Part shown: positions 3,001 to 29,068 of the stretch, piece after piece
Layout of the letters: each line of letters begins with the position of its first letter
Numbering within the stretch: the stretch's first letter is position 1
Source of the DNA: Liolophura sinensis
Taxonomy: Eukaryota > Mollusca > Polyplacophora > Chitonida > Chitonidae
Reading direction: 5' to 3'
DNA: 64,000 bases
Assembly: GCF_032854445.1 (NCBI RefSeq)
Contig: NC_088300.1
Coordinates: forward strand, 59,992,984-60,056,983
Made by a program: the position numbers and the translations under genes
Notes under the pieces: model-generated
The model's database searches: none
Seen by the model: only the letters and a program-made list of their open reading frames with translations
What the model was told of the DNA's origin: nothing

Positions 3001-3979
3001 AGGTCAAGGTCATTCCCTGCGCTCCATGGGGGATAACAGCGCCCGTATGCCCCTCGACTTACCCGACGACTTTCATCGCGGATCTGTAGCGCGTAGAATC
3101 ACTAGTCTTCTGAATCCCAACTCTCACGAGGACTTCATACGAGAAGAGTCTGATGAAGACACAACACCAATGAATGAAGATGTTACGAAATCCGAAACAG
3201 TCAACGACAGTAAAGATAATCCAGAGCAGGCTGAGAGCGTGTCTACTAGTTACAGAAAGCTTGGGCCAGGGTACTGTGTGTTGAATCAGGAGGCTACTAA
3301 CACATCTAATGAGAATGTTGAACTGTTCAGGTCTCTGGCGCAGAGCATTGAAGAAACATTCGATACCAGTTCTATGGAAACTAGCATAGAGGAGAGAAAG
3401 GTAAGATCAATTTCTAGGATTTTTTTGCTGGTGATTTATGCAGTTCATTTACCTTATAGTGATCCGGTTGATGATGAGGATAAAGACAAGGTTTCGGGCA
3501 TCCGCCGCCATTTTTCACACTTTTTTGCGTGTTCTCATCTGCAACGCTAGAAGGGGCAAATAAACTGGCTTAAGTGTCCCTACTTGGCATTCACAGGGGC
3601 TACATCAAACTGGCTCATAGCCACTTTCTCAAGTTGACCCAGCTTATGTTTGCCCGTGTGAACAGGGTGTTATTTTCTATAAACTAATGTCATCCATGTC
3701 AAGAAATATGACAATCACAGTAAAAGTATAGTGTAAGTTATGAAACTCAGTGTTACAGTTAATGACTTTGTTCATTTAAGGTAATGATGTCATTGTGGCA
3801 AAGTAAATGGCAGAGTATCTGTTCTGGAATAGACAAGGATCGTAAGTACACGTGTTTATGTAACTTCGTTCCCTTTACAGGAAGGAAAAGAAGCGAGTCA
3901 TGAGAAAGGGACAGAGAAACAGCTGACTGAGAAAGATGGGAATGAAGACACGGATGATAAGGCTATGGATGTCTCCTGA
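80..3979 (+). CDS. VCPIP1: VCPIP1-like deubiquitinase, C-terminal half (5' part lies before the window)
   Basis: Seven exons read in frame: 80-236, 709-833, 1295-1522, 1762-1899, 2213-2403, 2762-3400 and 3881-3979 (TGA 3977-3979). All have AG acceptors and GT donors. Together they give about 524 residues. Recognised from the order of conserved blocks: KKIRL..SDGRQ, a ubiquitin-like fold ending in FPPREL and PLQHGD, then a helical block with GKDLWAY, GGLFY and DGKHC, then ADRLEICLEPHGHFPVEP, a serine-rich stretch and GQGHSLRS. This is the region after the OTU domain of VCPIP1 (VCIP135). That family is a cysteine deubiquitinase that binds p97/VCP through the UBX-like region and works in Golgi and ER membrane reassembly after mitosis. 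The catalytic OTU domain must lie upstream of base 1. The tail is acidic (EDTDDKAMDVS). Exon 1295-1522 carries two single extra bases (near 1326-1332 and 1391-1398); the total length is divisible by three only after discounting both. They are either assembly errors or real lesions. The other exons are intact. Confidence 0.92.
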
Positions 3980-6900
3980 TCACTTCGTTTTCTCTTTACT
4001 TAACCCTATAGTTTTGTTGGTCAGGCAATAACTCTTCAGTACAATGACGTCATGGCATAAATTTGCATTGCGGGATTTCAAGTCGGGTAAAAAGTAGACA
4101 GTTACTTCTTTTCTTCCCTCCTTTATTAGAAAGGAGAAACTACCCCTGCAGAGTATTTTCCTGAAAGATATCGTGCTCTTTAATAAGTTTCGTGCACAAC
4201 AAAGGCATGGAAAACAAGGCTTAAGTACATGTACTCTAAATGACCATAAAATTTGTCCATGACTGACTTGCCCATTTTTCCTAATTCTGAGAGTTGTATT
4301 GATTTTAGAAAGTTGTTTTGAGGTTTGCTTGGAACATGGGATGATATTCTACTGGAAAAATTGTAATTTTAAGCTCCAAATATAATATTTTATGACATTT
4401 ATTTGCCTCTAAAGATGCAGTTTTGTGGGTGAAATTTGGGGTCATTTAGGGTATGTTATGAAGTGTTTTCAGAAATTGATTTTTCTTCAGAAAAATTGTT
4501 TTGATAGACGAGATCTTGCTGGTCTAAGAAACACCCACATCCAGGATATGTCTATTCTGCCTACTCCTTCAACCATTTCACAGGTTGACCAGGTATTGTT
4601 TTAAACATACTATATTTCACTTAAAGTGTGCTATGTGAAAATGTACTTTCAGAGGGCACAGGTATATAAAGGCCTTGAAATGACACTGAATGAAATTAAT
4701 CATGCTTCACCATAAACTCTGAAGTGGAACCATGAGGTGAATAAATCTATCTGAACTTGAATCAAACATAATGAGAGACTTAGCAGATGTTAAACTTTCA
4801 GTTAAAGACAGAGGATATTTCTCTCTCTCTCTGAACTGTAAGGTTATTGTTTTTGTTAGGCCCAGATGTTGACAAACCATACAAATATGAAATGAATGAT
4901 CACAATTATTTATCCATAAGGTGGACAAATTGCCTTCAAACTTTCCCCTCAACTCTTGAAGACTAGGGTACTGATCAACTCTTACCACACTTCAAATCCT
5001 AACATGCACAGCCTTCAGAATAAGTGAGGTTATTGTGTCCTGGGCCTATCAACATAATAGTTCTAACTTAAGCTGTTGTGTTCATTGCTTACGTGTACAC
5101 TATGTAGATATATCCTGCTCCTTACATAAATGTTATTATGTATGATACGAGTGTGGTAATTAATTTTGCCGGGTTGATTTAAGCCCTGTTTTGTTTTACC
5201 TAATATGACAGGTAACTTATAATTTGATATCTTATTGTTTGAAGTCTTTTTCATGTAAATAGACATTCTTCAAGTTTCCTCTTTGTATACTTCATATTGT
5301 TTGTGATAAACCTGTTGTGGCATTTAACTGTTGGTAAATCAAAATACTTGTACATGTTGTAAATAGCATTTTAAGCTAGTGAGAGTCCTTAAGACCTGCA
5401 CGCAGATAAAATCTTACCTATGAAGTGCAGCCAAGAAGTAACTGACTGCTTTCCGGTTTATTCCACAGAGATTTGAAAGCTCTTTTTCTCTCTAGGATTT
5501 ATGTTTTTTATGAATACATATCAGGAAGTTCCAAAAGCTGGGCACTTCAACGCAAAGTACCAGTGTGGTATATTAAACATTATGTATCACCTGAAAGATT
5601 TGGTTTTTTGGTATTTTCAAATTCTATCAAGCGGATAATACAATTAAAATCACTTTAACGATGGTAAAATCCTAACAAAGCTTATTTGATTGGAGGTAGC
5701 CATATTTGGGGGATTTCCCTCCTTGTCTACGTCAGTTGGGCAGTGTAGCACTCTCCAGTGATGTATATTTAGGAATTTATGTCAGCGGAAGTTTGTCTTT
5801 TTGGCTACTTCGATATACAGTTAGGCTGTTGCCTCATAAGGATATAAACATGGTTGTAAAACCATACTGGCTGTTTGCTAGGGCCCTCTTGAAAGTCAAG
5901 TATGTCCTGGGGCCTCTGTCACAATACTTTGTCAGTCACGTTTCTCGCAACTTCTTTCGTAAAAGACGTTGTCTATGTTATAGTGCCATAAGGTGATGTC
6001 ATTTACGAGAGAAAAGTTATGAACATTTGATGTACGAAGTGAAAATGGCCCTAGAAAGAAAATGTACTTTCATGCATGTGTATGAAAATAACAATGTCAG
6101 ACATTTCTGGAGTTTTGTAAGGTATAATATATCACTAAATAAGTGAGGTTATTCTTTTCTGGTTAATAGCAGGTGAGTTATTCTTAGCATTCGTTTTAGT
6201 TTCCTCTTGTTTTATTTGTGAGTGATATAAATTACATATAGTATGTTGGTTTTTGTGATTACTATGAAACTTGCAAAGAAATAGCCAGAATCCTGATGGA
6301 AAGTTTCCTGTTCAGAATAGTTTTCAATGTATTTTTCATGCCTCAGGTCTGCAGACTAATACATTAAATTGAAGTAAATTCTGACCATCATGGGAAACAA
6401 TAGTGCTAAATTTCTAAATATTTAATGCAATAATTTTTTGTCACCTTCATGACTTAAACAATTATGTGATAAAACAGTATATACAATAGACTTAATGTAC
6501 ATGAGCTTAATTGTGGAAAATTTAGACGTAGATTTAGGTATGTGATTGCAAACTCCTTAGAATATAGCCTTTTTTGTATCACAGGATTTACAGTTTCCTT
6601 TCTTTTGAAATCCATGTAAGCAAGATACTTTGTATTGGAATATTATGTTTGTGATGAAATGGAATGAGGTGTGTTGGAATTAACAGGCTGATATCACACA
6701 ACTGCACCTGATGAGCGTGGTTTGTACGATTGTTCCATTGTAAGACTTGTGTTTAAGGGAAAATATGATTTTTGTCCATTACAAGCATTTAAGGCCTCCA
6801 GCTTGTACATATTATAAATACAATCTAATTTTAACATAAATGTTTTAATGTGGCTTGGTGCATTGTAATTGATCAGATTATTTATCATATTTTGGACTTA

Positions 6901-8952: not shown

Positions 8953-9119
8953 TATGCTTTGAAACTTAAAAATAGGCTCTTTTTACTTTTGAATAGAGAA
9001 AAGCACTCTGAAACCTTTTAGATCGTGGCCAGAATATGTGTAACAGTGACCACAGTGTTATGTCTTCTTCCATTTGGTTTTAGGTCAGTTAACACCCATA
9101 ATATACAGACATATAATTA

Positions 9120-9345
9120 AATCCCAAACTCTCATTGGCTCAGACCTTTAAAACGCTGGTTCACTGCGTTTATCAGCCACTTGACAAATGAGATCGCATG
9201 TGCAAATCAAGGTTTTTGCTATTTCCACTGCGGCTTCAAGCCAGGAGGTTTGTCAGTTACCTGGCGGATTTGAAGCTCAGTGGTTACTCGAGACACTCCA
9301 TTTTCTCCACCAATAAACCTCACTGCCGTCGTATATGAAGCTGAA
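9120..9345. repeat. Old, degraded SINE-like copy
   Basis: The stretch CTCCACCAATAAACCTCACT followed by GCCGTCGTATATGAAG resembles the 3' body of the SINEs elsewhere in this window (CCACCATAATGCTGGCCGCC, then GTCGTATAAGTGAAATATTC), with many changes. Limits are approximate. Confidence 0.35.
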
Positions 9346-9813
9346 AATTCTTATTCTTTTGCAATATACAAACAACAACAGTATAATATTAGGTCTATAC
9401 AGGAGATTTTAGCAGAAAATCGTTCAGCATAAATCCAGTAGAATTTTTCCTGTTATTTTATAATAGCCAAAATAATTACCTTTCACAAAATATCAACCTC
9501 GTCTGTGCCCATGTTACTGTTCAAATAGTTCGTAAAAATTATAACGCAGGCCACTTTCATTAATTTTAGAATAATTTAATATTATAAATAAAAAAGGTAC
9601 ATTAACCAGTCTGACATTTCTTGAAAGGCCTTAATTTTAACCATTCTTGGTAAAAAAAAAGTACTGAATATTGTCGAGCAAATCGTGGCTTTTGTGCCAA
9701 AAATCTCCGGTATAGCCTCTTTAAATACTAGTACCAGCACGAAGAATTCATGTTTTTTTTCTATAAATTTCACAAATTGAAATATCCACGTGCAGGTGAG
9801 GATTTACCGTCTT

Positions 9814-12440
9814 CTAGTGATGTGGCTTGCCGTGATGGTCATAGTGTGACCAGGTACGGATCAGAGCGTAGAGACTGTCTCCTGGACAGTCGGTACTTCC
9901 CGCGTCACGGTGCCCGTACAGCTTGTAAGAGCTGGTGATCATCCCTTTGCTGATGGCGCAGCCTAGCCAGGCTTGCGCCGCGTCAAGCGCCGCCTTACCC
10001 GGGTTGTGTGTCATGTAGCTTCCCATGAAGGACAGAGCCAGAGCTACAGAGTTATATCCCTTTGTATGGGCACCCACCTTGTCCCAGCCACGCCCCTCGT
10101 ATATGCGACCGTCCTCTCCGACCAGGAAGCTATAGCCTATGTCACTCCAGCCTGGGTTGAAAGAAAAAATGGTCATTGCATGATAAAAGTCTTAGAATGA
10201 TTAATGCTGATTTGAAGAAATCTCTCTCTATGATGGCTTGAAAAACGCGAGTCTATAAGATGGTTTGAAAACATCCGCTTTATAATGGATTTACGGTATC
10301 CTATTCAAGATTTTAAATCAATCTCAATGTTTTAGAAACATGTATATCATTATTATCAGGTTTAGATATGCTCATAGGAGGCATGTGGCCTGTTGGTATA
10401 TGGGGCTCGTTCACGTTGTCCTTGAAAGATCGTCATAGAATACGGTACATCAACAGTTAAAAAGTTATGATCGAAAATACATGTTATTTGAGTTTTCAAG
10501 TCGTTCCACTATCGATATTTCAAAACATCACAGTCCACCATTCATTTCAAACTCAAGCATGCAGAATGATGACATTTTCAAACAAATGTAGTACGATGAC
10601 ACTCTCAAGTTCTTCATGACGCCGTATCCATTGCCCACAAGCTTACAGTCATGGGATTATAAGCCGTCAATTCTGCCGTAATATGTCCCACAGAGTTAAT
10701 CCAAATCCATGCTTTTCCATATCTTCATGTGATTATAGACCTACGAGACCTTTGTGTCCATAATTGGAAAGCCAATATTGTTTGTATTCTCATATCTATA
10801 TACATGTACTGAAAACGTACAAAATATGCTGTAAAAATAAATAGGCTGATTTGCATTAGCAGCAGGAATGGATCTCTTGCAAAAGAATTCTAAGATCTCT
10901 CCTAGAATGTGCTTTTCATTATCTACGCTAGACCCTGCTTTATATGTAAAATGGTGGCGGGTGCAAGCAGTCGATGTGGACCCCATTTGCATACGAAGAG
11001 ATCAGAGTATTAAAGGACAACAGGCCTATTGTGGGTTATAGTAGCAAGTGTCACCTCTGGAGTCCATGTGGAAGTTCTGTATGCCCCTCATCCTGACGGA
11101 ACAGTCGTGCTCATTAAAACAGGCCGGCGTCTCTGTGTGATGGATGAACACCTGGGACACAGGGTTCCGCAGGTGGGACACGCTCTTCGGGGCCCGGGCA
11201 CCCCACTGGCTCCGACTCACAATCGTCAGCCCCGGACAACCGGAACTGTGGGCTGGGGACAAGACAACAGCAACCTGTGTTTGCTCATATATATAGGGAA
11301 AAAGAACTTTGGGCGATTTAAAATATTTATCTGTCTCAACCGTGAAGTGACGTCATATATTTAGTGAAAAGTTCTTGACTAATAAATATTGTGCCTGGTG
11401 ATGGCAAGATCAATTATGATTTGGCTTGATTGATAGAGACCCTTTTTCTTGCTGATGACACTACAGCGTACGTAATCACAAAATAGGACCTAGCATCAAT
11501 TAGCTTACCTAGAGTCCACGAAGTGTACAAATCTTTAAAGTTCGAAACCAGAAATTAACCCTTTATCCATTTGTTTCCAATTTTACAAAACTTTCAAACA
11601 TTTTTTCGTCCCCGGTATAGTTGGATGACAGGAGTTTCTTTGCATCAAAACTTACATCCTGTGGGCATACAGCAGCGATTGTGGACCCCACCAGGGCAAA
11701 GTCCAGAGTGGTACTCCCCAGAGCAGTGATGATGGTCCTCCTGACACACCCCACCCTCCGGGCTGCAGTGATCAGCCGCTGAAATAACAACAGCACGAAA
11801 TATCGTGTATGTAAAGTTCGGTACCCACACTATATTATATTAATGTCAACTTATTTGGAGTAAAATAGGGATGTCTTTGCATTTTTTTTTATGTTTGCTG
11901 AACCCCGGTCACTGGACTCTTCTTACAACTTCATAAAGGTTTGTTTACTGTGCCCATTTGTTTTGAAGAGCGTTAGCTAATATTGATATTAAATCATATT
12001 TTATATTTAAAAATTTAGCCAAACTCAACAGTCAATGCAGTTCTCCAAAGTTAAAGTTTCACAGCAGCAGTTTAAGCTCATATTTAACGTATTGGTACAC
12101 ACTTTTTTTTAGGCTAAGTACAAAACTGAAGACTTGCCTTAAAGTTAAATCTTGTATTAAGTCTTCAACCAGATTTGAACAACCGGGCCCAGGTACACAT
12201 TTTTTTGGCTAACTACAAAATTGAAAACTTGGTTTAAAGTTGAATATTGTTATTAAATCTTAAACCAGTTTAGAACAACCGGGCCCAGCTGTTCATTACA
12301 CTCTAGAATGGGTCTATATGGGTGTAGAATCATGTTTGGCTTTAACCTACATGACGAAGACGAAGCTATTAATTACGACTATTTAACTCACCTTGAGTAT
12401 GTGCCAGAAGTCCGACCAAACACAACCACATGGAAACCAT
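9814..12440 (-). CDS. Secreted peptidoglycan recognition protein with Cys-rich domain and complete amidase site
   Basis: Four exons on the minus strand: 12440-12392, 11778-11656, 11252-11055 and 10151-9814. They join in phase (all introns phase 1) into 235 residues. Exon 1 encodes a signal peptide (MVSMWLCLVGLLAHTQ). Exon 2 encodes residues 17-57 with six cysteines (21, 28, 35, 44, 52, 53) in the pattern C-GGVC-CSG-SGLCPGG-RCC, a small disulfide module seen fused to invertebrate PGRPs and lysozymes. Exons 3-4 are a PGRP / amidase_2 domain (about 65-225). The expected residues of a zinc N-acetylmuramoyl-L-alanine amidase are present: H95 (HHT), Y130 (DIGY), H204 (YGHRD) and C212 (TDCPG). The conserved C102-C108 disulfide pair is also present. 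Such enzymes cut the lactyl amide bond of peptidoglycan stem peptides outside the cell. The function is inferred from these residues. An AG at the start of a possible 5' UTR exon lies near 12480. Confidence 0.95.
12094..12289 (-). mobile_element. Two tandem copies of a ~98-base GGGCCC-ended MITE-like repeat
   Basis: Two adjacent, similar segments (12094-12192 and 12192-12289) each end in GAACAACCGGGCCCAG. Each contains a related body: GGCTAA(G/C)TACAAAA then TTGAA, and ATTAA(G)TCTTAAACCAG. Read on the minus strand they start GGGCCCGGTTGTTC. The same end is seen again at 62984. They lie within the first intron region of the minus-strand PGRP gene. Confidence 0.6.
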
Positions 12441-14269
12441 CTTGGAATACTGAATCGTTATGTCTCTGGTTATAATATCCCTAGAATCTAAAGGAAATAC
12501 ACAAACCTTTAACCTTGAAAGATAAGTGATATATACGTATATGTATAGATAAAATTTTTCCAGATATCTTGTCAAAAATCCCGTTATCTCTACAGGCTTT
12601 CCACCCATAGGACGTTGTATGAGTTGTGTGTCATCGTAAGAAAACACTAACGTGTTTCTCAACTGCATAAGTTTGAGTGTTATATTAACCACCAATAAAC
12701 CAATCAATCAGTCAGCAAAAGCAGAGTTTCCACTAATCTGACCCTGTGTTAGCTAAACAATTAAACATAAGTTCAAGCAGTACCTGAAAATGGCCAGAAG
12801 TCCTATGAAACTATACACACATGTATGCAAATAAAGAAGCCATATAACTTTAAAGCCATTGCATTTCCCTTTACCGTTCACGGACAAGACATAACACTAC
12901 TCAAGGCCCATGTAAAAAATGAAAAAAAGTATATAATAACCATAATTTTAAGTATTAAAAGACGTTCAGTATAGTGTCGCTTAAAGGAAAGGCAAAGGAT
13001 GAATAATCACCCCGAGGCCTGGTCCCTTCGCATTGTTTTAATGTGATTCCATATTAAATGTGATAACATAGTATTCTGAGTAATTCTATACCAGTGATGT
13101 CAAATAAATTGCAACTAACGTCAGTCCAATGTTTTGATATAATTCTACCATGGGACAAGAGGACGTGTAATTTCCTGCTATTTAAGCATTTACATAAACA
13201 GTTAGGACCAAACCCTGACTGAGGTAAACTGAGGTCGTATTTCACTGGTTACTGTGACCATTTGCCCACTATCACATGCACTCTCGTAGCTGCTCTGGTT
13301 TTACTTTATGCTGTATTAAAAGTATTTTATATTGTCACAAATTCCACAACATGAGCTATATGAGATCCATCCCACAAGATTTAGCTGGTCATGAATTTAT
13401 ATTTAAAGCCATTTGGTAGTTCAAGCCATCAACTGGAGCATAATTAAACACGCTTATCTTTAAAAGCAACGGAACAATCCTCACGAACATAAGGTGGTCA
13501 AATCAACCGTCACATAATCCTGCTGTATGTTCGTGTAATGTTGTAAATGTAGGTTTCATAGGTTGTGCACCAGATAATATTCACATTTTAAATTATCAAT
13601 TAAGATTTCTAATGCATTTATACAATTACAGGTCCCACTCTTAAACACAGCCACAGATGTGTGCAAACCACGCACATCCTTTTGTGGTTATTGCTACATA
13701 CACGACCTATATGGCGAATTTTACATTTGAGGCGGCACAAGTATGCTTTGAGTATATATTCTTAACCTAGTTTTTGTGACATCCCCATTATTCCATCTAC
13801 GAACTGTGGGTAGAACGATATAAAAGACATTTCCAAAGTTTGTACCTTGTTATAAATGTATTCGTGTGCATTCAGGGACTCCAACAAAAAAAAGCAAAGT
13901 TGTGGTGATATATACATTAGTTATATACTACTAGAGCAAGCCTACGAATAACAGACTGTCGCTACTACATTATAGCTCACGATGTAAGAGTTGTATCCTA
14001 GGTGCCTTTGACAAATGGGTAGATCAAGAACTCCGTACATAGGCTGTTGTAGCTAAGTAAATAAACTGGTCACCTGAATATGCACATCTACACTGTAAAG
14101 GGACCACTCTTTCTCTGCACAGTAAATACAAGTATTTAGTGTAAGTAAAGGGTGTATAGGGCCTGTCGTCAGACGTGTTGATACCTCATCCCGGAGCTCT
14201 GCAGAATTTCATCCGGAATCGTTAACGCCTACAGCAGGTACCAGCATATATACAAACCACAGGTAAGTC
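12441..14269. other. Intergenic: nothing recognised
   Basis: Sequence between the two head-to-head PGRP genes. It is AT-rich, with no open frame of coding character and no clear repeat. It should contain the promoter of the minus-strand PGRP gene, but I cannot point to a convincing TATA or initiator element. Confidence 0.4.
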
Positions 14270-14425
14270 GAATATTTATTTATTTGACTGGTGTTTTACG
14301 CCGTACTCAAGTGTATTTCACGTATATGACTGTGGCGAGCATTATGGTGGGAGGAAACTGGACAGAGCCCGAGGGATACCCATGACCATCCTCAGGTTGC
14401 TTTCAGACCTTCTAGCTATAATACT
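14270..14425 (-). mobile_element. SINE copy, 5'-truncated (family A)
   Basis: Minus-strand copy. It begins with a TTTA-type tail, then GACTGGTGTTTTACGCCGTA, CTCAAGTGTATTTCACG and GCATTATGGTGGGAGGAAAC, and ends near TTGCTTTCAGACCTTC. The tRNA-like head is absent. It matches the full copies at 28794, 46257 and 57942. Confidence 0.8.
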
Positions 14426-15918
14426 GATCTCCATCTATATTTCATCTTAGTGCACAACCACTGGTTGACGGTTTGCAAACATTGGTAGATGTGTGTCTGC
14501 ATACCCTTACAATGCACGTCTAACTGACTGACGCACAATCAGAATGAATACGAGTCTCGTCTAGACACCTCCATACAGATTAGCAAATCTCATACAAGTT
14601 TGATCAGTGAAGGAGAAAAGTATAACAAACTGAAAGTATAACTAACGCAGTTACCTGATGTCAAATTTCTGATTCCGTACTTAACTACAGATTTCTGTTA
14701 AAAGGCTGGTATTGTGACATGCCCAAACGGTTCCTATTCCCAATTAGGTAATACTGATCTTTCCAGATGTCACAGAAGAACTATATCAACAGCTACATGT
14801 AAGCCTTTGATGGCATACGTTATGTATGAAGTAGGTTGGTTATATTTACTGAATCTATATACATTTGCCCAGGTACATTGTATATGACATCACCGTTGAA
14901 GGAAGTGAGATATTTGCACAGCCTTTTTGTTTATATATGAAGGCCCCTCCCCCCCCCCATGAATAATGCAAACTGGTTTTGTATGACATCCAAGTGATTT
15001 CGCCCCATCACGTTTGTGACAAGGTTTTTCCATACAGAGGAATGAAGTGGTGGCATGTCTAGCTGAACTCCCATCACATACATAAATAAACTTAAAAGCA
15101 TACCTCATAAGTTTTCACATAACGTATTAGCCTATAATACCTAATCAGAACCACAAAGAACTATTATGGATAAACGCCGTTTGGTGTTATAACGTATATT
15201 TGTTTTGCTTTTAAGCAGAGTTAATTGTCATATGGTTTTCAAGAATTAGGCAAGAGATCAAATTTTTGAAGCGAAAGATTTCGGATACAGATGGATCCAA
15301 AGTGAAATTATGCAGTGTAACTCTATAGGCATATAATAATCTACATATTTTTTTATCTTTTTTTTTAGAATGATACATTCTGTATCAATGGTATGCCAGC
15401 AGATGTCACAGAAAACATTAGGACTATATTTTATTGGAAAGACACAGGAAATCCACGTTCGGTTAATCATGCTTATATAATACTGATAGATATGTTTGAA
15501 TATCGCACAAGTAGAAAGTACCTCGTGAAACCTGGCGTCTCTAAACTTATAATATTGACCCAAGAGAAATAAGTATAAATATGTAAAGACGAAATAGTTT
15601 CAAGGTGTCATCTCAATTTGAAATAGAAAAATACACCGATGATCACATTGTTTTTGTTTGTTTTTTTTTGTTGGTGAAATATATCTTACTTGGTTTTTAT
15701 AATGTTACCACCGAATCAACGTTAATGTGCTGAAAATGTGTTTGTTCCACCTTTCGCAAAAACAAGGCAGATAACTCGCAAAATGTCAGTTAGATTAATA
15801 TTCTTTCCTCATAGAGATCAGAGAAAAATCATAGAAAAATATTCATCTGAAAACTTGGGGAAAAAAATTTTAGCCGTGCAGCCGTTGTGTAAACTGGATT
15901 GGTTTTATACGAACAGAA
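14426..15918. other. Intergenic: nothing recognised
   Basis: Upstream flank of the plus-strand PGRP gene. It is AT-rich, with a short C-run near 14948 and no supported gene. Confidence 0.35.
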
Positions 15919-18900
15919 ATGCAGTGGGAAAAAGAAGTGTGTGGCGGGCGAAGATGCCGGTGGACAAAGATGGACCTGTGCTGTACTGTGCTGTGTCTCA
16001 TTTCTTTCGTCGTTACACTCATTGTCGTGTTTGTAGGTAAGTTACAGCATAATGTAAGTGCCTGCGCACATAACCTACATATGCATAAGCTGGGAATGAA
16101 TCGAGCTCGTGCTTAACAATGGTTGGCCTATATAGGGTAAATTATATTGTCGTAATCGTCCTTCCATCTGTCCATTTCTTTGTTAACATTCTACATCTTA
16201 ATTGAACTCTTACTGTCAGTTTTTACCGAGTACAGAGCACAGGGTGCTTGGGTAGTTATACATTATAAGCGCTTAATTTAAACCTATACCACATGTATCA
16301 TCAGGCATAAAGAGAGAGGCGGTGATCTTGCTCAATTTTGTCAACGTCATTGTTCACCTAATCAGTTGTTGACCATTTCACCGCTGCGGAGATTGAATTG
16401 AGAGAAACAAATTTTTTATTCAGATTCGCGCTTTACATTTATTACCAAGGACCTACTGTGAATTTTAATTTGCTTGATATGTTATTTGCATATATGTTTA
16501 CGAATTGAAAATAGATATAGTGCTTATGTGTTTGAAGGTTAGTGTGGAATAAGGTCTTTGCGTGTCTGGGATTCGTGGAGGTTTGCGTTTCTGAAGGTTC
16601 TTGTAACTGAAAACTGTTCTTTATCAAGGTTCATGTGACTAATGGTTAGTGACCGGAAAGTTCGTGTGTCTGATGGTTTGTGTACCTCGTAAGGGTTCGG
16701 AAGTCTGAGGGGTTTTGTGTAATATCTGAATAAAGTTTAGGTGTCTGAAGATTCCTGTGTCCAGATGTTCATGTGTCTGTAGGTTCTTGCATCTGAAGAA
16801 TACTGTGTCCGGATGTTCTTGTACCTGTAGGTTCTTGCGTCTGAAGATTCCTGTGTCCGGATGTTCTTGTGTCTGTAGGTTCTTGGGTCTGAAGATTACT
16901 GTGTCTGAAGGTTCTTGTGTCTGTAGGTTCTTGCGTCTGAATATTACTCTGTCTGGAGGTTCTTGTGTCTGGAGGTTCTTGCGTCTGATGATTCCTGTGT
17001 CTGGAGGTTCTTGTGCCTGTAGGTTCTTGGGTCTGAAGATTCCTGTGTCTGGAGGTTCTAGTGTCTGTAGGTTCTTGCGTCTGAAGATTACTCTGTCTGG
17101 AGGTTCTTGTATCTAGAGATTCTTGCGTCTGATGATTCCTGTGTCTGAGGGTTCTTGTAGGTTTTTGTGTCTGAAGATTCCTGTGTCTGGAGGTTCTTGT
17201 GCCTGAAGGTTACTGTGTTTGAAGGTTCCTGTGTTTGAAAGTTTCTGACATTCCAGTAGTGTATGTAGTCATCAACTGCATTTTCGATATCACTGGAAAC
17301 TTTTCCAGAATTTTCCAGAAAACGCTGGAGGTTGAATTTCTATACTTGTTGTACTCTGCTCAATGTGCGTGATATTTTATATTTTTTCACATTATGTTTT
17401 CACATTTGTCGTTAGGGTACATGTAAAGCATATAGCACGTATAACAGCAGACAAAGGACAAAATGAGTATCAGGGGTTACATAAACATTGTTCACTGGCA
17501 TCGGAAGTTGTACCACTTTTCAAAGACTGAAAAAAAAATCCAAAGTGAAGTCGAACCAAGCACACGCATGTACACTGTAGATAGTTATAAGAACATGCAA
17601 CTACAATGAATCAACGTAAAGACTATAAATCCTATAAAGCAATATCAGGGCATCTCCAGCTGTCTAGCGTCCCAAAGCTTCCGAAGTCTAGGCGACTTCT
17701 GCACCCTCCCCTTTTTGCGCTGGGATAAAGACGACCGATACCCGTACCCCTTTCACATTGCTTCTGACGCGCCTGTCGTTACATGACGCCTGTAAAAAGA
17801 TTATATGTGTTATTAGCCCTTTACGAAACCAGCACCCAGGAAGAGGATATCTGTAACACCCGAGACACACCAACCCGGATGTTTCCCGTTCACACTAAGA
17901 AACGTGTAAGATACCATCACGAGGACATATGTGGCGCCTTAACACATGTAGTGGTGATACAGATTTGTTATTCTTAATAGCGCTCTATACATAGATATAC
18001 AGATAGACACAAAGTAATGAATAGTGATTAAAGAATTCTGAATAACCGATAAAACTTACAAATTCAAGTACTTAAATATCAAAAAAAAACATTGAAAAGA
18101 GTATGCATTTTCTCGCAGGTGCATGCCATAAAAAATCTAATATGTACCTCAAGTTGATAAATTATAATAAAGTCAGCGCCAAAATCCGCTGTGGGCGAGT
18201 CCATTTTGCTTAAGAACTAGTCCTAAAGTCTTCTGTGTTAGGAGGATAATGGCCGTCGGAAACCTTCGAAGAGCAGTTCGTACATTTCCGGTAGAACTCT
18301 TCTTCCCAGAAGGTAGCGAACAGTACAGTTCGTTTTCCTCTTGACGATCGGAACACCAGAATGTTGGACGTAGGTTCCGAGTTTACATGAACAAGCCGGC
18401 AGTTTTAAACACTCTCACTGGCTGAGAGGCAACACGCCCCCAGTATAAATTACAGGCTTTACGTGTATGGCGAGGAAAAATCGCAAAATTATGCAGCAGG
18501 CACCACCAGATAGAAAAAAGATGTGCTCTTTTCAGCATATAGTGTCATAATTTTAAATTTTATTTCTCCTTAAAGCTTTGTAAATATTCCTTGGTTTTCA
18601 ACTGGGTGAAAACAGCTCTTACCAAGGTGGAATGGTTGTCATATGGAGGAAAAAGCTCTTGCCTTGGTAAAGAAGTTTTCTAACAGGTATAGAATAATGA
18701 GACTCTTTTAACCCACGTGAAACGGTTTCCACACAGCTGAAAACTCCTCTGATACAAAAAGGCCTTGTCGTTATCTCCGGTGTCTTGGACTTAAGATGGC
18801 ACTGCAAGCCATTTTCAAACAACCAGAGCATATAAGTATGAACATATATTCCATCTGATCACACAAAACCAACCTGACTCACTTGTTCCCACTTTTAGAC

Positions 18901-20261
18901 TTTTGAAACCTGCACAATACGCATCTGCTATCACGTGAGTTTCCATCTCGGTGAAAACAGTGACAAACAACACCAAGTCGTAGTTTTATTTATTTTATTT
19001 TTTTTGACATTCATGTTTGTGACCTGTGTGATGGTCAGTTACATCTACATATTCTGGCATTAATTCAAACTTCAAAGTTTGACCGCGCCTTATTCTTACC
19101 TGACTATAGTGTACCAGGGAACGTGTGATGTTACCATAACAACACGTGCCGAATGGGAAGCTCGCGAACCGAGAGACAAGGAGATTAAGGATACTGCGCA
19201 AGTTGGGATCGTTATCATCCACCATACATCCCGAGCTCACTGCGAGAAATCCGAGGATTGCGCCACAGAGATGAGAAAACTGCAGGACTTTCACATGGAC
19301 GAACGTGGTAAGCTCAGAATGCCGGCTCCATTAATTTCACTCCAAAAAATTATCTGTTTAATTTAACAGAAAGTTTGTTGTCTGAGTGTTCCTAGAATGT
19401 ATTCTGCTATTGTAGCAGATTATTCTGTTCAATATTACAAACATATTCTATTAATTCAACATATCCTTTCTATTAGGCTAACATTGTATTTTGTTGAATT
19501 TGACAGAATATTGTGTTATAATTTAACAGATTTATTTTGGAGTGTAGTTACTGCTTGTTCAGTTATATTTTACTTTTATATGTAGCAGCATTATACTCAC
19601 ATCTCTTCTGTCATGTACAAAATCTAGTATATATACGAAATCTAAACGCAAACGCTCTGTTCATTGGTGATACCCTTTGGAACAAGATAATATGTTTTGT
19701 CATCAGTCATACATCTTGTTTTATTCTAAATATACCCGACAGTTTGTTTTTTTCTTGAATACCTCGTAAACCTCGGTCAAAAGTAAACAAACTGGTTGAT
19801 ATGACACTGCATGGCTATACGATCTTCTTGGCGACTTGGGCTGATAATGGCCACGTATCTGCAAATGTTAACATTAACACATGTTGTTCATGTATATTCT
19901 ATAAGGTTGGGACGATATTGCCTACAATTTTCTGGTGGGCGAGGACGGCTCTGTGTACGAGGCCCGTGGCTGGAAGTACCAAGGGGCTCACACTTTCCAG
20001 TGGAATGCCGTGTCCATCGGAATAGCAGTCATGGGTAATTTCCAACAGAAAGAGCTCAGTCAGAAGTCGATGGATGCCCTGCGATCCCTCATCACGTGCG
20101 GGGTGACCAAGGGTTTCATCAGTCCCGACTACAAGCTGTACGGTAGACGCGATATGAACCCCAATACGACAAGTCCAGGAGACAAGTTGTACGCCCAAAT
20201 TAAAACATGGCAACAGTTTGACACAAAGAAACCTGTACATCCTTATAAAGCGGAAGTATAG
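15919..20261 (+). CDS. Membrane-anchored PGRP lacking two zinc ligands (predicted non-catalytic)
   Basis: Three exons: 15919-16036, 19110-19307 and 19906-20261. They join in phase 1 into 223 residues. Exons 2 and 3 form a clear PGRP domain (about 45-212): HHT with H77, the C84-C90 disulfide pair, DIAY with Y112, GEDGSVYEARGW and WNAVSIGIAVMGNF. The zinc-site His and Cys are replaced: YGRRD has R186 where the amidase has His, and TTSPG has S195 where it has Cys. Hydrolysis is therefore unlikely and recognition likely, as in known non-amidase PGRPs. Exon 1 is less certain. It gives a short cationic, Cys-containing N-terminus (GGRRCRW), then a hydrophobic segment at about 19-39. This fits a type II signal anchor, or a signal peptide if translation starts at M18. 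It ends at a perfect GTAAGT donor in matching phase. The 3-kb first intron holds a minisatellite. Exon 2 has exactly the length of its counterpart in the minus-strand gene (198 bases). Confidence 0.88.
16525..17250. repeat. 16/48-base minisatellite in intron 1 of the plus-strand PGRP gene
   Basis: Units such as AGGTTCTTGCGTCTGA, AGATTCCTGTGTCCGG and ATGTTCTTGTGTCTGT follow each other. The 16-base unit groups into a 48-base higher-order unit. The edges, especially before 16750, are degenerate. The 48-base period keeps a 119-residue frame open (C-CRFL-LKI motif); this is a by-product, not a gene. Confidence 0.85.
17251..19109. other. Remainder of PGRP intron 1: nothing recognised
   Basis: No exon can be supported here. 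A GC-richer stretch at about 18170-18450 has no frame or repeat that I recognise. An extra small exon cannot be ruled out. Confidence 0.3.
19336..19547. mobile_element. MITE inside PGRP intron 2 (family with TACACTCCAAAA ends)
   Basis: The left end reads TTCACTCCAAAAAATTATCT and the right end TTATTTTGGAGTGTAG, which are inverted repeats. Inside are GTTTGTTGTCTGAGTG and AGAATGTATTCTGCT, then GTAGCAGATTATTCTG. These also occur in the much longer copy at 42874-43920. It lies between exons 2 and 3 of the PGRP gene. No target duplication is visible. Confidence 0.65.
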
Positions 20262-20476
20262 TCTTTTTCTTCGTGGCTCTTACAATCTAGTTATTACGCA
20301 TAATGCAACTTATTTCATTATTTCAAGTTAAGTTTATATCCATGTGTGTTTCACTTCTTTTCATACACAAAGATGCGCGTATCACTGTTGATCCATACGC
20401 GCTGCGGTTGATTTGATTGTTTGTTTTTAAGACGGATGCAACACTGTTGTTATGTAAAATCATTACACACATCAGT

Positions 20477-20482
20477 AATAAA
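20477..20482 (+). promoter_or_regulatory. Polyadenylation signal of the plus-strand PGRP gene
   Basis: AATAAAG lies 216 bases after the stop codon at 20261, a usual distance, and is followed by a GT-rich stretch (GTGTTGGTGTGATGTGTG). Confidence 0.6.
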
Positions 20483-21085
20483 GTGTTGGTGTGATGTGTG
20501 ATTGGGATTCCCTTAAAAACTAATACATCTTTAAATGATACCCATTGGAACAAGATTATATGTTTGGGCACCAGTTAAACATCTTGTTTTACCCCCTTCC
20601 AGGACGGCATGAAATGGTTCGAGTTTTAGTAAAGACTATATATACTACATGTACACCAGTATACGGGATGGCATTGGGAATGAAATAAATAGCAATACAA
20701 GTAGGCTCTATATTTTCTATTGTGACGTGCAGTTGAAGCGACACCAGATACTATTGCAATAGTTATGACACTCTTCCTGTTCTTATGTAGAATCATTGCA
20801 CGTTGAATTATGTTGTCATACTTTAACATGAGTGTATGTACGCAGAAAATAAATGTTGTATAACTCAAAATTAACTGCGTGTTTGTCGTGAGCTGTAATG
20901 GCATTTCGAGAATTAGCCGAAAAGAAAAAATAATAAATGAAGGCTATACACAAGTATATAGCCAGGTGTGGCCAGATAGTAATTCTTAGCTGATCAGTTT
21001 CGAACAATGTATTGGCAACTGGAAGGGTCTAACGCCGTATATGCCCCTCTGGCATCCGAAAAACAATAGCAATGTCAAAATACAA
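20483..21085. other. Intergenic: nothing recognised
   Basis: AT-rich sequence up to the assembly gap, without supported genes. The phrase CATTGGAACAAGAT...CATCTTGTTTTA at about 20540-20590 resembles 19672-19725 in PGRP intron 2, so a short dispersed repeat or local duplication is possible. Confidence 0.35.
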
Positions 21086-21285
21086 NNNNNNNNNNNNNNN
21101 NNNNNNNNNNNNNNNNNNNNNNNNNNNNNNNNNNNNNNNNNNNNNNNNNNNNNNNNNNNNNNNNNNNNNNNNNNNNNNNNNNNNNNNNNNNNNNNNNNNN
21201 NNNNNNNNNNNNNNNNNNNNNNNNNNNNNNNNNNNNNNNNNNNNNNNNNNNNNNNNNNNNNNNNNNNNNNNNNNNNNNNNNNNNN
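21086..21285. other. Assembly gap (200 N)
   Basis: Exactly 200 undetermined bases. The round size suggests a placeholder gap. It directly abuts the 45-base tandem array, so the true array length is unknown. Confidence 0.99.
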
Positions 21286-22645
21286 TAAGTAACAACCCTG
21301 GCCATATACACTGACATTTTGAACGTCCATATCATCACAACCCAGGCCATATATACTGACATTTTGAACGTCCATATCATCACAACCCTGGCCATATACA
21401 CTGACATTTTGAACGTCCATATCATTACAACCCTGGTCATATACACTGACATTGTGAACGTCCATATCATTACAACCCAGGCCATATACACTGACATTTT
21501 GAACGTCCATATCATTACAACCCAGGCCATATACACTGACATTTTGAACGTCCATATCATTACAACCCTGGTCGTATACAATGACATTTTGAACGTCCAT
21601 ATCATTACAACCCTGGTCATATACACTGACATTTTGAACGTCCATATCATTACAACCAGGTCATATACACTGACATTTTGAACGTCCATATCATTACAAC
21701 CCAGGCCATATACACTGACATTTTGAACGTCCATATCATTACAACCCAGGCCATATCCACTGACATTTTGAACGTCCATATCATTACAACCCTGGTCGTA
21801 TACAATGACATTTTGAACGTCCATATCATTACAACCCAGGTCATATACACTGACATTTTGAACGTCCATATCATTACAACCCAGGCCATATCCACTGACA
21901 TTTTGAACGTCCATATCATTACAACCCAGGCCATATCCACTGACATTTTGAACGTCCATAACATTACAACCCTGGTCGTATACAATGACATTTTGAACGT
22001 CCATAACATTACAACCCTGGTCATATACACTGACATTTTGAACGTCCATATCATTACAACCCTGGTCGTATACAATGACATTTTGAACGTCCATAACATT
22101 ACAACCCTGGTCATATACACTGACATTTTGAACGTCCATATCATTACAACCCTGGTCGTATACAATGACATTTTGAACGTCCATATCATTACAACCCAGG
22201 CCATAAACACTGATATTTTGAACGTCCATATCATTACAACCCAGGCCATAAACACTGACATTTTGAACGTCCATATCATCACAACCCTGGTCGTATACAA
22301 TGACATTTTGAACGTCCATAACATTACAACCCTGGTCATATACACTGACATTTTGAACGTCCATATCATTACAACCCTGGTCGTATACAATGACATTTTG
22401 AACGTCCATAACATTACAACCCTGGTCATATACACTGACATTTTGAACGTCCATAACATTACAACCCTGGTCATATACACTGACATTTTGAACGTCCATA
22501 TCATTACAACCCCTGGTCGTATACAATGACATTTTGAACGTCCATATCATTACAACCCAGGCCATATACACTGACATTTTGAACGTCCATATCATTACAA
22601 CCCAGGCCATAAACACTGACATTTTGAACGTCCATGTCATTACAA
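21286..22645. repeat. 45-base minisatellite, about 30 copies
   Basis: Unit begins AACGTCCATATCATTACAAC and continues CCAGGCCATATACACTGAC, then ATTTTG. There are alternating variants (GGCCATATACAC, GGTCATATACAC, GGTCGTATACAA). Because 45 is a multiple of 3, frames stay open on both strands (up to 521 residues on minus, 283 on plus). They encode only 15-residue repeats such as NVHIITTQAIYTDIL or MDVQNVSVYDQGCND, without other coding features. Confidence 0.97.
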
Positions 22646-22974
22646 AGAATACTCGGAATACTCTTTCTGATTCATAATGTTAAACTCCATATGCTTAGTT
22701 CCGACACCTAGAACTCATTGCCTACCAGGAAATTTTGGTAGCGAACATGATTGATTTTAGAGATAGGTGAATATAGTCGACTGCTTAAGAGAAATAGACT
22801 ATAATACATGTAATCTTTTGATCTCTAATAAAGTTAACAAACACTGGTATGTACATCTGTGCTATGTATAGGCTCTACTCTTCGGACGCAGATGCATAGG
22901 ATGACATGCTATTATCAGGCAGACTAGGTCGTCCGAAATTTGATAACAATATTACATCGTAGTCTACTCAAGAT

Positions 22975-23965
22975 GTCCAGTCGACCACAACACATTGACC
23001 ACAAAAGGACGTCATATGTTGCCCATATCAAGACGTCCAGTCAACCACAAAAGGACGTCCATATGCCGCCCTTATCAAGACGTCCAGTCGACGAAACAAC
23101 AATGATCACAAAAGGGCGTCCATACGTTGCCCATATCAAGACGTCCAGTAACCACAAAACACTGACCACAACAGGACGTCAATACGCTGCCCATATCAAG
23201 ACGTCCAGTCGACCACAAAACACTGACCACAAAAGGACGACCATCAGCTGCCCATATTAAGACGTCCAGTCGACGAAACAACAATGACCACAAAAGGATG
23301 TCCATACGCTACCCATATCAAGACGTCCAGTGACTACAAAACACTGACCACAACAGGACGTCAATACGCTGCCCATATCAAGACGTCCAGTTGACGAATC
23401 AACAATGACCACAAAAGGACGTCCAAACGCTGCCCATATCAAGACGTTCAGTCGACTACACAACAATGACCGCAAAAGGACGTCCATACGCTGCCCATAT
23501 CAAGACGTCCAGTCGACCACAAAACACTGACCACAAATGGACGTCCATACCCTGCCCATATCAAGACGTCCAGTCGATGAATCAACAATGACCACAAAAG
23601 GATGTCCATACGCTACCCATATCAAGACGTCCAGTGACTACAAAACACTGACCACAACAGGACGTCAATACGCTGCCCATATCAAGACGTTCAGTCGACT
23701 ACACAACAATGACCGCAAAAGGACGTCCATACCCTGCCCATATCAAGACGTCCAGTCGATGAATCAACAATGACCACAAAAGGACGTCCATACCCTGCCC
23801 ATATCAAGACGTCCAATCGACGAAACAACAATGACCACAAAAGGACGTCCATACGCTGCCCATATTAAGACGTCCAATCGACGAAACAACAATGACCACA
23901 AAAGGATGTCCATACGCTGCCCATATCCCCGTTCAGTCTACCACAAAACACTGACCACAAAACGC
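22975..23965. repeat. 61-base minisatellite with GACGTC palindromes, about 16 copies
   Basis: Unit: GACGTCCAGTCGACCACAAA, then ACACTGACCACAAAAGGACG, then TCCATACGCTGCCCATATCA, A. Each unit carries two GACGTC cores, one within the 8-base palindrome GGACGTCC. Variants replace GACCACAAAACACTG with GACGAAACAACAATG. The last copies lose the GACGTCC element (about 23925). Confidence 0.95.
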
Positions 23966-25907
23966 TGAATACCGCGTGATAATCCAGAACAACACGAGTG
24001 TAATCCTTACTTCGATACTAAATGAATCAGTGGCCTCCCATTGACACGAAGCCAGAAAACGTACTTTCTACACACAAACGGCAAAGGAATACATTCGAAA
24101 CTATCCGATAAATGTTCTAAATATTCTTAAGGATAGCTGAACCTGCGAAATTTCTGTTTAAATGGTTGAATGACCAAATCTGCAAACCATTCGCACCTGT
24201 GTGTACATCCGGCCTTTCGTCGAACTATATCAATTCAGTATAGTTTTACGGCATTACACTAATCGTCTTAATTATATAGATCTCAACCAGCGTGTGATAG
24301 TCAGCTCTTACTGAACTGTTAGCTTTGCTTGTTTAAATCAAGCTGAATACTAAATGAGATGAGCATACACGGCTGTTAAATATACAAGCCTTGTTAGAGC
24401 AAACTGCAAGTAATTTAATGAGTCCGTTTAAATATGCGTCAGAAACGATAACGAAATTGGTATTCCTTTAGAAGAAGCACCCCTAATCAGCAATATGAGT
24501 TGCACAAATAGTATTAACTGTATTTAGCAGCTTAATGATACTAGCCTATGTAGCTTGGGTAGACAGAAACATTAAGCGATTAAAAACAATACCCAATAAT
24601 CCATAATTTCTAAATATTATTATTTCTATATTGTCCGATTTTCATGTAGGAATCTGATGTTTAGTGAAAACAGGTGAGAAATCAGGCAAATTTTATGCCT
24701 GTTTCACACGCAAACTTTAATGCACGTTTGCTGGTCAGCCTTCTTTTTTTTTTTTTTTTTGCCTCTTTTTCTCAGTCAGTTTCATACCTCGCAACGTAAA
24801 AACCTTTTAGACTACTTTCAATGCCGGGTTATACGGTTAATATACGCTGTCAGTATGGGCAAAAGCGCTTTGATTAGTAAGTAACCCGCAAGGAGATAGG
24901 TACCCCCTCCCTCACCGTACCCATCCCCAAGCCACCACAACGCAACAAACCCTACTTCGTGTACCCAGAGTATAATGGTAGGATTACCGCCTTTATAGAT
25001 TCGACAGCTAATAACTGACCGCACATGCGGTAGTAGGTAATCTGATTTCCGTCTAGATGTCTCGCCGCCAATTATATGGGCGGAATGATCGATGTACATG
25101 ACAGAAGGGCAGACCTAAAGCAAAGATAAACCTATTTTGAAAACACTGACTGAAATAAACATGGGTATGTGTATATGTGTAATAAATCACACCATATAAT
25201 ATGATACTGCGAAATAGGATTATGATATAATATGCACGTATATGCAGTGTTATTAGTCTAAATACAGCAAACACTTTGATGTCATGTTAATAGAACGGCG
25301 AGGCGATTAAGCCATATTTAGATGATGTTTCTTGGAATAATATATTTCACTTATATGCAAGCATGGACATATTTGTGAAGACCCTGAAGATCAAAGAATA
25401 TTATATAAGAGATACATGATTCACATATCAGGATGTAAAAATGGATAAAATATATGACGAAAGAAAGAATGACACATGTTCTTGTCTACTACATGTAGTT
25501 GTACCTCTTTTGCGGATTTAAACCTTTTTTATAGTAATTATATAACCATTATATAGTAATATACATGAACATGTAAAACAGAAATTTACCAGATAACTCA
25601 GTGGTGACGGTTGTGAAGACAGTACAGTTAACATTTATACTGGATTTGAATCTAGGTAATCAGGTGAATAAATTAGGTATAATATAGGCGTAGGCTATAT
25701 TCGGTTTCATCGAAGCCTTTTGTTTTATGGGTTCAGATTTGAAGTTTCGCACCGAGTATTGTGCCTACTTTCTCAAAGGCGTAGAATTCACAACCTGTAG
25801 AGTGATTGGGCTTATGCAAATCAATAGGTTATATGCATGTATACATTTGTTCTGCCTTCACACATTCTGTGACAGTGTAGTTTACAGTAACATAAAAGTC
25901 AGTTCAA
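23966..25907. other. Intergenic: nothing recognised
   Basis: About 1.9 kb, AT-rich, with a T-run near 24745. There are no open frames with coding character on either strand. Confidence 0.35.
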
Positions 25908-26345
25908 GACAAGATCTTGTCTGCATTGTTGTTATTCTAACAGTCTCCTCTAAGGTATTTCTCTTGTCTCCATGTTACAATTGCATGACAAGATCTTGTC
26001 TGCATTGTTGTTATTCTAACAGTCTCCTCTAAGGTATTTCTCTTGTCTCCATGTTACAATTGCATGACAAGATCTTGTCTGCATTGTTGTTATTCTAACA
26101 GTCTCCTCTAAGGTGTTTTTCTTGTCTCCATATTACAATTGTATGACGAGATCTTTTCTGCATTGTTGTTATTCTAACAGTCTCCTCTAAGGTATTTCTC
26201 TTGTCTCCATGTTACAATTGCATGACAAGATCTTGTCTGCATTGTTGTTATTCTAACAGTCTCCTCTAAGGTATTTCTCTTGTTACAATTGTATGACGAG
26301 ATCTTTTCTGCATTGTTGTTATTCTAACAATCTCCTCGAATTCCT
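25908..26345. repeat. 79-base minisatellite with a 14-base palindrome, six copies
   Basis: Copies start at 25908, 25987, 26066, 26145, 26224 and 26295. The step is 79 except the last, which is 71. Most begin with GACAAGATCTTGTC, a perfect 14-base palindrome, followed by TGCATTGTTGTTATTCTAAC and AGTCTCCTCTAAGGTATTTC. The copies at 26145 and 26295 have GACGAGATCTTTTC, which breaks the palindrome. The array ends about 37 bases before the splice acceptor of the next exon. Confidence 0.95.
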
Positions 26346-26382
26346 TTACCCATGTTACAGTTTACCTCATTTTCCAGTACAG

Positions 26383-27024
26383 GTGTATGAAGCGGACCAG
26401 ATTCCACAACGAGAATCCTTACAAAAACTTTATCTACAAAATGGGCGAAGCTACTAAACTGGCATGGCAAGGGAAACGAGCTAGCTTTCGCTCATCTCGA
26501 CATCAGGACGATGGTGTGTGGTACATAGACCTAATATTATGTCATACAGCAGATCGTTGTCATTGGAATCAAACTTGAAAGTAATATTTCGACATGAGCA
26601 GGAGAAACATGTATGGAATGATACTACCTCTACATTGTTGACCGTAAACCTATAAACCTATAAAGCAACGCGAAATACAAGTAATTTGCACTTGAAGATG
26701 GCTGGCCAATATATTAGTTAGTATAAATTGAATGTGTACGTAAACATATGTAAGTACATATGTTTCAACAGTTCAACTAATTCCTTAAATAAAATTTTGG
26801 TATTGCAGCTTCACTAAGAAAGAATCCTCTGTACACTAAAATACATTATAAAGCTATCGAGAGCACCGTGAAGAGCTGGTTGAGACATGTCGCGGACAGG
26901 AACGGTCGGCGGAGATCGCAAAGCAAGGCAACCACCAGACAGTTACCGACATCTCTTACTTATAACAACAACTTCCTTAAAACAGTGTCGGGAAGTGAGT
27001 TCAATCCAGAAACTGGTCACGCAG
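26383..27024 (+). CDS. Two exons of an unrecognised basic protein (partial)
   Basis: Exon 26383-26513 follows TTTCCAGTACAG and exon 26809-27024 follows GGTATTGCAG. They join in phase 1 and end at a GTAGCT donor. If the ATG at 26387 is the start, the product reads MKRTRFHNENPYKNFIYKMG in exon one (42 residues). Exon two gives 72 residues with KNPLYTKIHYKAIESTVKSW, a basic stretch NGRRRSQSK and SEFNPETGHA. The frame is closed in the other phases, and splice signals and phase agree. I do not recognise the family; there is no signal peptide, membrane segment or catalytic motif. The third exon is not identified. The exon at 40718 is in the wrong phase to follow directly. The exon at 27731 would fit the phase but would end after nine residues. 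Confidence 0.6.
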
Positions 27025-28792: not shown

Positions 28793-28793
28793 C

Positions 28794-29068
28794 GGGGGCC
28801 TCCGTGGCTCAGTTGGTTAGCACGCTAGCGTAGCGTAATGACCCAGGAGTCTCTCACCAATGCGGTGAGTGTGAGTTCAAGTCCAGCTCATGCTGGCTTC
28901 CTCTCCGGCCGTACGTGGGAAGGTCTGCCAGCAACCTGCGGATGGTCGTGGGTTTCCCCCGGGCTCTGCCCGGTTTCCACCCACCATAATGCTGGCCGCC
29001 GTCGTATAAGTGAAATATTCTTGAGTACGGCGTAAAACACCAATCAAAAAAAAAAAAAAAAAAAAAAT
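28794..29068 (+). mobile_element. Full-length tRNA-derived SINE (family A) with 14-base target duplication
   Basis: Starts GGGGGCCTCCGTGGCTCAG. The head has a tRNA-like A box (TGGCTCAGTTGGTTAG) and B box (GAGTTCAAGTCC). Then follow the body (CTCTCCGGCCGTACGTGGGA, CCACCATAATGCTGGCCGCC), the conserved 3' end GTATAAGTGAAATATTCTTG and GCGTAAAACACCAATC, and an A-tail of about 23. CAATGTCAGGTATC is repeated exactly at 28780-28793 and 29069-29082, so the insertion is recent and its ends are certain. Confidence 0.97.

Follow-up and report, generated by a model that had tools for sequence, protein, structure and literature searches.

A 64,000-nucleotide stretch of the genome of the chiton Liolophura sinensis (C6:59992984-60056983 of the 609-Mb assembly, in the following called the window) carries two genes for peptidoglycan recognition proteins (PGRPs) which point away from each other. 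The two genes probably encode animal PGRPs with different tasks that came to lie side by side by a later rearrangement: the one on the minus strand (minus gene) a secreted zinc amidase, the one on the plus strand (plus gene) a type II membrane-anchored binder lacking a complete zinc site. Both are known kinds of PGRP and as a pair they are ordinary, while their history is informative. They adjoin because a segment of about 13.8 kb, which holds the plus but not the minus gene, has been duplicated between two places of the genome. The original prediction, based on the letters of this DNA, had described a divergent pair 3.5 kb apart that arose by duplication with inversion. Both genes and their layout are confirmed, with 3,478 bp between the start codons, whereas the proposed origin does not hold. 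The only run of N in the RefSeq window (21086-21285) lies to the right of both genes, so that the two are not brought together by a scaffold join.

Rebuilt from the sequence, the minus gene has four exons and a predicted product of 235 amino acids, the plus gene three exons and a predicted product of 223 amino acids (Table 1). All five introns of the two genes are of the GT-AG type and in phase 1, and both genes contain an exon of exactly 198 bp, as had been predicted. Hydrophobic first exons with a phase-1 donor were searched by a scan with thresholds of our own. Upstream of exon 2 it covered 4.1 kb for the minus gene, where the stretch 12440-12392 is the single candidate, and 6.5 kb for the plus gene, where there is one 3' end, 16036. 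Against the Pfam profile Amidase_2 (cut-off 26 bits) the minus protein scores 69 bits (E = 6e-19) and the plus protein 72 bits (E = 6.5e-20, one matched stretch). Each of the two matches 33 distinct solved chains at E ≤ 0.01, and together with the Pfam scores this excludes a chance resemblance for both genes. The best solved relative of both proteins, by sequence, is BbtPGRP3 from amphioxus; the minus protein is 49.4% identical to its structure 4z8i over 164 columns and can be assigned on this basis to the animal PGRP family.

In fly PGRP-LB, according to the extract of PMC8124813, H42, H152 and C160 bind the zinc, cleavage requires Y78, and R92 contacts diaminopimelic acid (DAP); in the same extract the mutants H42A, H152A and C160S retain peptidoglycan binding. 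The zinc set of amidase PGRPs (two His, one Cys) and the Tyr are complete in the minus protein as H95, H204, C212 and Y130, exactly as numbered in the original prediction, which had also recognized the signal peptide. By alignment the minus protein keeps every PGRP-LB counterpart that was compared (zinc ligands, Tyr and DAP-contacting Arg), and a G-W pair is present as well. With its signal peptide, a six-cysteine module and the full His/His/Cys/Tyr site, it would act as a secreted zinc amidase, which should cut peptidoglycan including the DAP type.

The plus protein keeps the first zinc His (H77), the Tyr (Y112), the Arg and the G-W pair, but R186 and S195 stand in place of the second zinc His and the Cys, in agreement with the Arg and Ser noted before. 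Two of the three zinc ligands of an amidase are thus lost. One Pfam search of the genome, in which exon matches at E ≤ 0.001 were counted, gives a lower bound of at least nine PGRP places, namely the two window genes and seven others. Among these the plus gene alone has lost the C-terminal zinc ligands, and the other eight retain His and Cys. The DAP Arg (the equivalent of R92 in fly PGRP-LB) and the G-W pair occur in both window genes. Because the bumblebee SA and camel rows also carry both, this signature does not discriminate in the set used and is no proof of a preference for DAP.

The predicted N-terminal membrane anchor of the plus protein is borne out by a mean hydropathy of 3.06 across 19 residues. 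Structure prediction, which had been suggested as a check of the pair, was carried out for this protein: an AlphaFold2 model built with seven bacterial rows shows a helix at residues 18-41 and a PGRP fold, with a mean predicted local distance difference test score of 77.3. In a Foldseek search with this model the first 36 of 50 listed rows are PGRPs, the best being 2r2k (E = 5.2e-19, target template modelling score 0.90). By the Pfam cut-off, the model and the Foldseek matches the plus protein can likewise be regarded as an animal PGRP. With a short, basic tail in the cytosol, a single transmembrane helix and a PGRP domain facing outwards, it would be a type II membrane protein, and it most likely attaches to peptidoglycan on the cell surface but does not cleave it. 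In the cytosolic tail of 17-19 residues no RHIM, the motif of IMD-type signalling receptors (PGRP-LC/LE), was seen by eye, no profile having been run. The protein would most likely serve as co-receptor, tether or decoy, with no recognizable signalling domain of its own. The distinction between a secreted amidase and a membrane-anchored, zinc-less binder drawn in the original prediction is in this way supported at the level of sequence. If the assigned functions are true, the pair offers a mollusc example of how an enzyme acting on peptidoglycan has become a binder fixed in the membrane, while the genome retains its catalytic relatives.

Studying the DNA around the plus gene reveals the duplicated segment. 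Window positions 13197-26988 and C6:44194875-44182865 are connected by collinear blastn blocks on opposite strands, with about 76-89% identity when gaps are counted. The two copies were compared by block-wise alignment, and in seven selected well-aligned blocks 4239 of 4743 aligned non-coding bases are identical (89.4%, Jukes-Cantor distance 0.115). The segment includes all plus exons together with 2.7 kb of upstream and 6.7 kb of downstream DNA. The copy of the plus gene at the 44.19-Mb site on C6 (L012/L020) is broken: exon 3 is gone, the acceptor of exon 2 reads AA instead of AG, and in the first zinc motif Asn and Tyr have replaced both His. Between the duplicates 111 of the 118 bases of exon 1 are kept, with four synonymous and three other changes and a ratio of nonsynonymous to synonymous substitution rates (dN/dS) of 0.225; exon 2 shows five synonymous and thirteen other changes. 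Except for dispersed repeats and PGRP exons, window positions 9000-13196 and 26989-30000 find no matching DNA at the 44.19-Mb copy. Likewise, when the minus gene with its flank (9000-13196) is compared with 101 kb of sequence at the second copy and with the stretches read at the paralog loci, only one repeat and the paralogs' own exons match, and within these 101 kb no copy of the minus gene is found upstream of the broken plus gene.

Since the left edge of the segment falls between the minus and the plus gene, the latter was most likely brought in together with the 2.7 kb of DNA that precede it. Because exon 2 of the broken copy is located about 12 kb from L001, another PGRP gene of C6, we infer that the 44.19-Mb PGRP cluster was the source of the segment, which was copied from there to beside the minus gene. 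The chance of a random landing within 12 kb of L001 is about 4 in 100,000 by our own arithmetic (24 kb of 609 Mb). A dispersed mobile element was considered for the segment and rejected: in a genome-wide search with window positions 18570-19410, long matches were obtained, among the matches listed, only at the window itself and at C6:44.188-44.189 Mb (for the piece 18570-19338). A circular intermediate was also dropped, as the left flank is only 69% like the right flank of the donor. Within the segment there is a repeat of about 75 bp in plus intron 2 (19331-19410) with at least 40 short scored matches across the genome, and tandem arrays are found in plus intron 1 (16741-17243) and downstream of the plus gene (21292-22645, 22998-23968).

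Table 1. Exons of the two PGRP genes, the duplicated segment with the repeat at its edge, and further PGRP places of the genome. Positions are those of the window unless a C label is given.
Feature	Position	Strand	Remarks
Minus exon 1, signal peptide MVSMWLCLVGLLAHTQ	12392..12440	-	ATG to GTGAGT donor, phase 1
Minus exon 2, six-cysteine module	11656..11778	-	consensus splice sites
Minus exon 3, 198 bp, first part of PGRP domain with zinc His H95	11055..11252	-	
Minus exon 4, Y130, H204, C212, stop	9814..10151	-	Pfam Amidase_2
Plus exon 1, basic tail of 17-19 amino acids and membrane anchor	15919..16036	+	
Plus exon 2, 198 bp, H77	19110..19307	+	
Plus exon 3, Y112, R126, R186 and S195 (zinc ligands lost), stop	19906..20261	+	
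Duplicated segment (about 13.8 kb), whole plus gene, without minus gene	13197..26988	+	inverted relative to C6:44182865-44194875
Dispersed repeat of about 120 bp, left edge of segment	13178..13317	.	matches C6 44181209-44181700, 44194763-44194877, 44238938-44239065
L001, L005	C6, 44.17 and 44.22 Mb		Pfam match
L002	C8		Pfam match
L006	C1		Pfam match
L007, L008	C2		Pfam match
L009	C9		Pfam match

To place the two genes within the family, longer stretches were read around the seven non-window PGRP places (L010, L011, L014 to L018). In all seven non-window copies with a readable exon A, the counterpart of the 198-bp exon (L001, L012, L014-L018), the donor after this exon lies at the same place in phase 1, judged by inspection and with the L001 frameshift set aside. 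The length of the exon drifts, with 186 bp in L015, L016 and L017, 196 bp in L001, 201 bp in L014 and 183 or 210 bp in L018; the broken L012 has 198 bp. Because the intron phase is family-wide and the exon length drifts, an equal exon of 198 bp is no sign that the two window genes are sisters. Sequence identities point in the same direction: the plus protein is nearer to L001 (60.5%) and the minus protein to L015 (55.1%) and L001 (53.3%) than the two are to each other (44.6%). Trees were built from 15 rows (ten from this genome and five solved PGRPs) and from 11 rows. The plus protein groups with L012, L001 and L005, with a support of 74/55 (15 rows) and 97/98 (11 rows); fly PGRP-LB, on a long branch, falls beside this group in the larger of the two trees (90/89). 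The members of an inverted duplicate pair should be each other's closest relatives, and the minus and plus genes are not.

An origin of the two genes from each other by tandem duplication with inversion, as originally proposed on account of the shared intron phases and the 198-bp exon, could also draw on their pairwise identity of 43% over 178 amino acids. However, the approximately unbiased test rejects a clade of minus, plus and L012 (p = 0.0017 with 15 rows, 0.00032 with 11 rows), the intron phase is common to the paralogs, six of which differ in exon A length, and the duplicated segment carries the plus gene only. In its strict form this origin is refuted, and we give it hardly any credence. 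A clade of the minus gene with the whole plus/L001/L005 group is weakly rejected with 15 rows (p = 0.0435) and not with 11 rows (p = 0.162); therefore the minus gene may be an older cousin of this group. The segment could also have been copied the other way, from beside the minus gene into the 44.19-Mb cluster, so that the pair would be the older arrangement. In favour of this, the broken copy sits at 44.19 Mb, and the edge of the homology coincides there with the end of a repeat. On the other hand, in that case exon 2 of the broken copy would have come to lie by an unlikely chance near L001, which among the catalytic genes is the nearest relative of plus, and the split between plus and L001 is much older than the segment (dS of 1.7 against 0.115). 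We regard this direction as rather improbable and prefer a transfer from the cluster to the minus gene.

The preferred interpretation has to face a number of points that weigh against it. The gene models are predictions from sequence. The direction of copying is not shown by the sequence alone: since the left edge coincides with the repeat end in the 44.19-Mb copy, it could also have arisen at that site. Between the duplicates, the identity of exons 1 and 2 does not exceed that of non-coding DNA (p = 0.13 and 0.56). Three relatives of the plus gene are damaged: the broken copy, L001, which keeps all zinc residues and has one extra base causing a frameshift in a run of A in exon A, and L005. 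The latter, a degenerate duplicate of L001 (86% identical across 93 residues), is split by a sequence like a short interspersed nuclear element (SINE; L011 about 3977-4549), and its catalytic Tyr is changed to Cys. The plus gene could therefore be decaying too, as a pseudogene in the making whose loss of zinc ligands is part of the decay, and with one of five outgroups it evolves faster than L001 (p = 0.008). With the other four there is no significant acceleration (p = 0.29-1.0), and against decay stand the intact frame of 223 amino acids, the GT-AG splice sites and the retention of the other key residues of the groove. For exon B a dN/dS of 0.145 in comparison to L001 suggests constraint, although a dS of 1.7 leaves the comparison almost saturated, and the selection may date from before the loss of zinc. 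Decay of the plus gene is thus unlikely in our view. About equally unlikely is a secreted plus protein, translated from Met18 onwards and with the hydrophobic stretch cleaved off as a signal. In favour of this, a G stands at position +4 of Met18, and the literature extracts used present short mollusc PGRPs as a rule as secreted proteins. However, about 21 unbroken, mostly hydrophobic residues are followed, by inspection, by no small-residue cleavage motif, the model has a helix at 18-41, and the duplicate has Val at Met18 and yet keeps Met1 and 56 of the 57 bases of codons 1-19.

It had also been proposed that a promoter region shared by the two genes could co-express a sensor and an effector. 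The divergent orientation and the combination of one amidase with one binder would suit such a co-regulated module. Bidirectional promoter pairs, however, usually share an intergenic region of less than 1 kb, and here the start codons are separated by 3,478 bp. About 2.7 of the 3.5 kb belong to the duplicated segment, present also upstream of the broken copy, and thus most of the intergenic DNA came with it. No NF-kB-type site was found in the 3,478 bp, against 0.15-0.24 expected, nor is there a clear excess of GATA, C/EBP, AP-1 and IRF patterns between the genes. These data give no support to a shared control region; as an explanation of the pair, the sensor-effector module appears improbable. 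TATA-like patterns are found 18 times in 12441-15918 against 7.8 expected, a level reached by 2% of 300 shuffles.

Another observation concerns the anchor exon of the broken copy (44191469-44191352; L020 1052-1169). Among the candidate first exons in the 18 kb upstream of L001 exon A (L010, C6:44174.4-44176.1 kb) it has the best donor score, 11.0, in comparison to 6.4 for the other 3' end listed, and L001 might borrow this exon. One could go further and assume that the transposed segment, by placing a zinc-less anchored PGRP beside a secreted amidase, fixed a new surface receptor or decoy for peptidoglycan, the only one of the nine places found without C-terminal zinc ligands, and that the anchor exon of the broken donor may now splice to L001 to yield a membrane-bound amidase. 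This scenario seems to us rather improbable. The more general lesson is that the same intron phase, an equal exon length and a head-to-head layout can mislead on history, as the introns belong to the family.

Comparing the minus protein with known systems, it resembles the short, secreted amidase PGRPs known from bivalves and gastropods. In the extracts of PMC6206172, PMC9570181 and PMC4655397, ApPGRP-1 and -2, Ct-PGRP-S1 and the Bathymodiolus PGRPs likewise have a PGRP domain with zinc-binding residues; a signal peptide is given there for ApPGRP-2 and the Bathymodiolus CL2060 transcripts, and a Gly-Trp or Arg-Trp pair for the Bathymodiolus isoforms. Unlike these proteins, of which Ct-PGRP-S1 is described in these extracts with an SH3_3 domain, the minus protein adds the six-cysteine module, encoded by an exon of its own and overlooked in the original prediction. 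Amphioxus BbtPGRP3 (4zxm, 4z8i) is also a secreted amidase PGRP that bears a small cysteine-rich domain at its N-terminus, and the phmmer alignment of the minus protein extends into this domain (query 15-60). However, by the extract of PMC4610682 the BbtPGRP3 module is hevein-like and chitin-binding with a four-disulfide core, while that of the minus protein has six cysteines and, searched alone, gives no match to BbtPGRP3 at E ≤ 10. The module matches no Pfam family at E ≤ 10 either, and its best solved chain is Defensin-BvL with a non-significant E of 1.6, for which reason an identity as beta-defensin was dropped. A second copy of this exon was found neither by motif nor by tblastn within the stretches read at the paralog loci. 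Among the matches listed, a literature search gave nothing on point for a defensin-like PGRP or a head-to-head PGRP pair.

By anchor, missing zinc ligands and the lack of a signalling tail, the predicted plus protein would fit an anchored regulator of the PGRP-LF kind, with the tail judged by eye; such regulators block the dimerization of a signalling receptor. Drosophila PGRP-LF and LAF, an isoform of PGRP-LA, are likewise transmembrane PGRPs within a PGRP gene cluster, and LAF has a transmembrane segment and a PGRP domain without RHIM (extract of PMC3724876). PGRP-LF differs, according to the same extract, by two PGRP domains and a reported lack of peptidoglycan binding, while the plus protein has one domain with the key groove residues kept. 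Among lophotrochozoans, OalgPGRP1, 3 and 5 of Olavius algarvensis are described in the extract of PMC5117596 as having a transmembrane segment at the N-terminus and a cytosolic portion for which no similarity is known. There OalgPGRP1 and 5 keep the amidase residues and OalgPGRP3 is incomplete (four of five), whereas the plus protein has lost two zinc ligands.

Elsewhere in the family, L016 and L017 lie about 30 kb from each other on C2, share 98.2% of 168 residues and probably go back to a recent tandem duplication. A dispersed repeat of about 140 bp, which we take to be a RUDI-like molluscan SINE (RUDI is named in the reference list of PMC10294476), is located at 14273-14412 and in seven other places of the window, and also in the paralog loci. 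An Rfam scan of the window gave no matches, and none of ten other open frames of the window has a Pfam match at E ≤ 0.1. The open frame 34538-34993 on the plus strand, without a Pfam match, has a weak match to the inositol 2-dehydrogenase profile TIGR04380 (33.6 bits where the cut-off is 355, E = 1.9e-8) and one to the solved chain 4hkt (E = 0.00085), and is probably an exon of a gene of this type.

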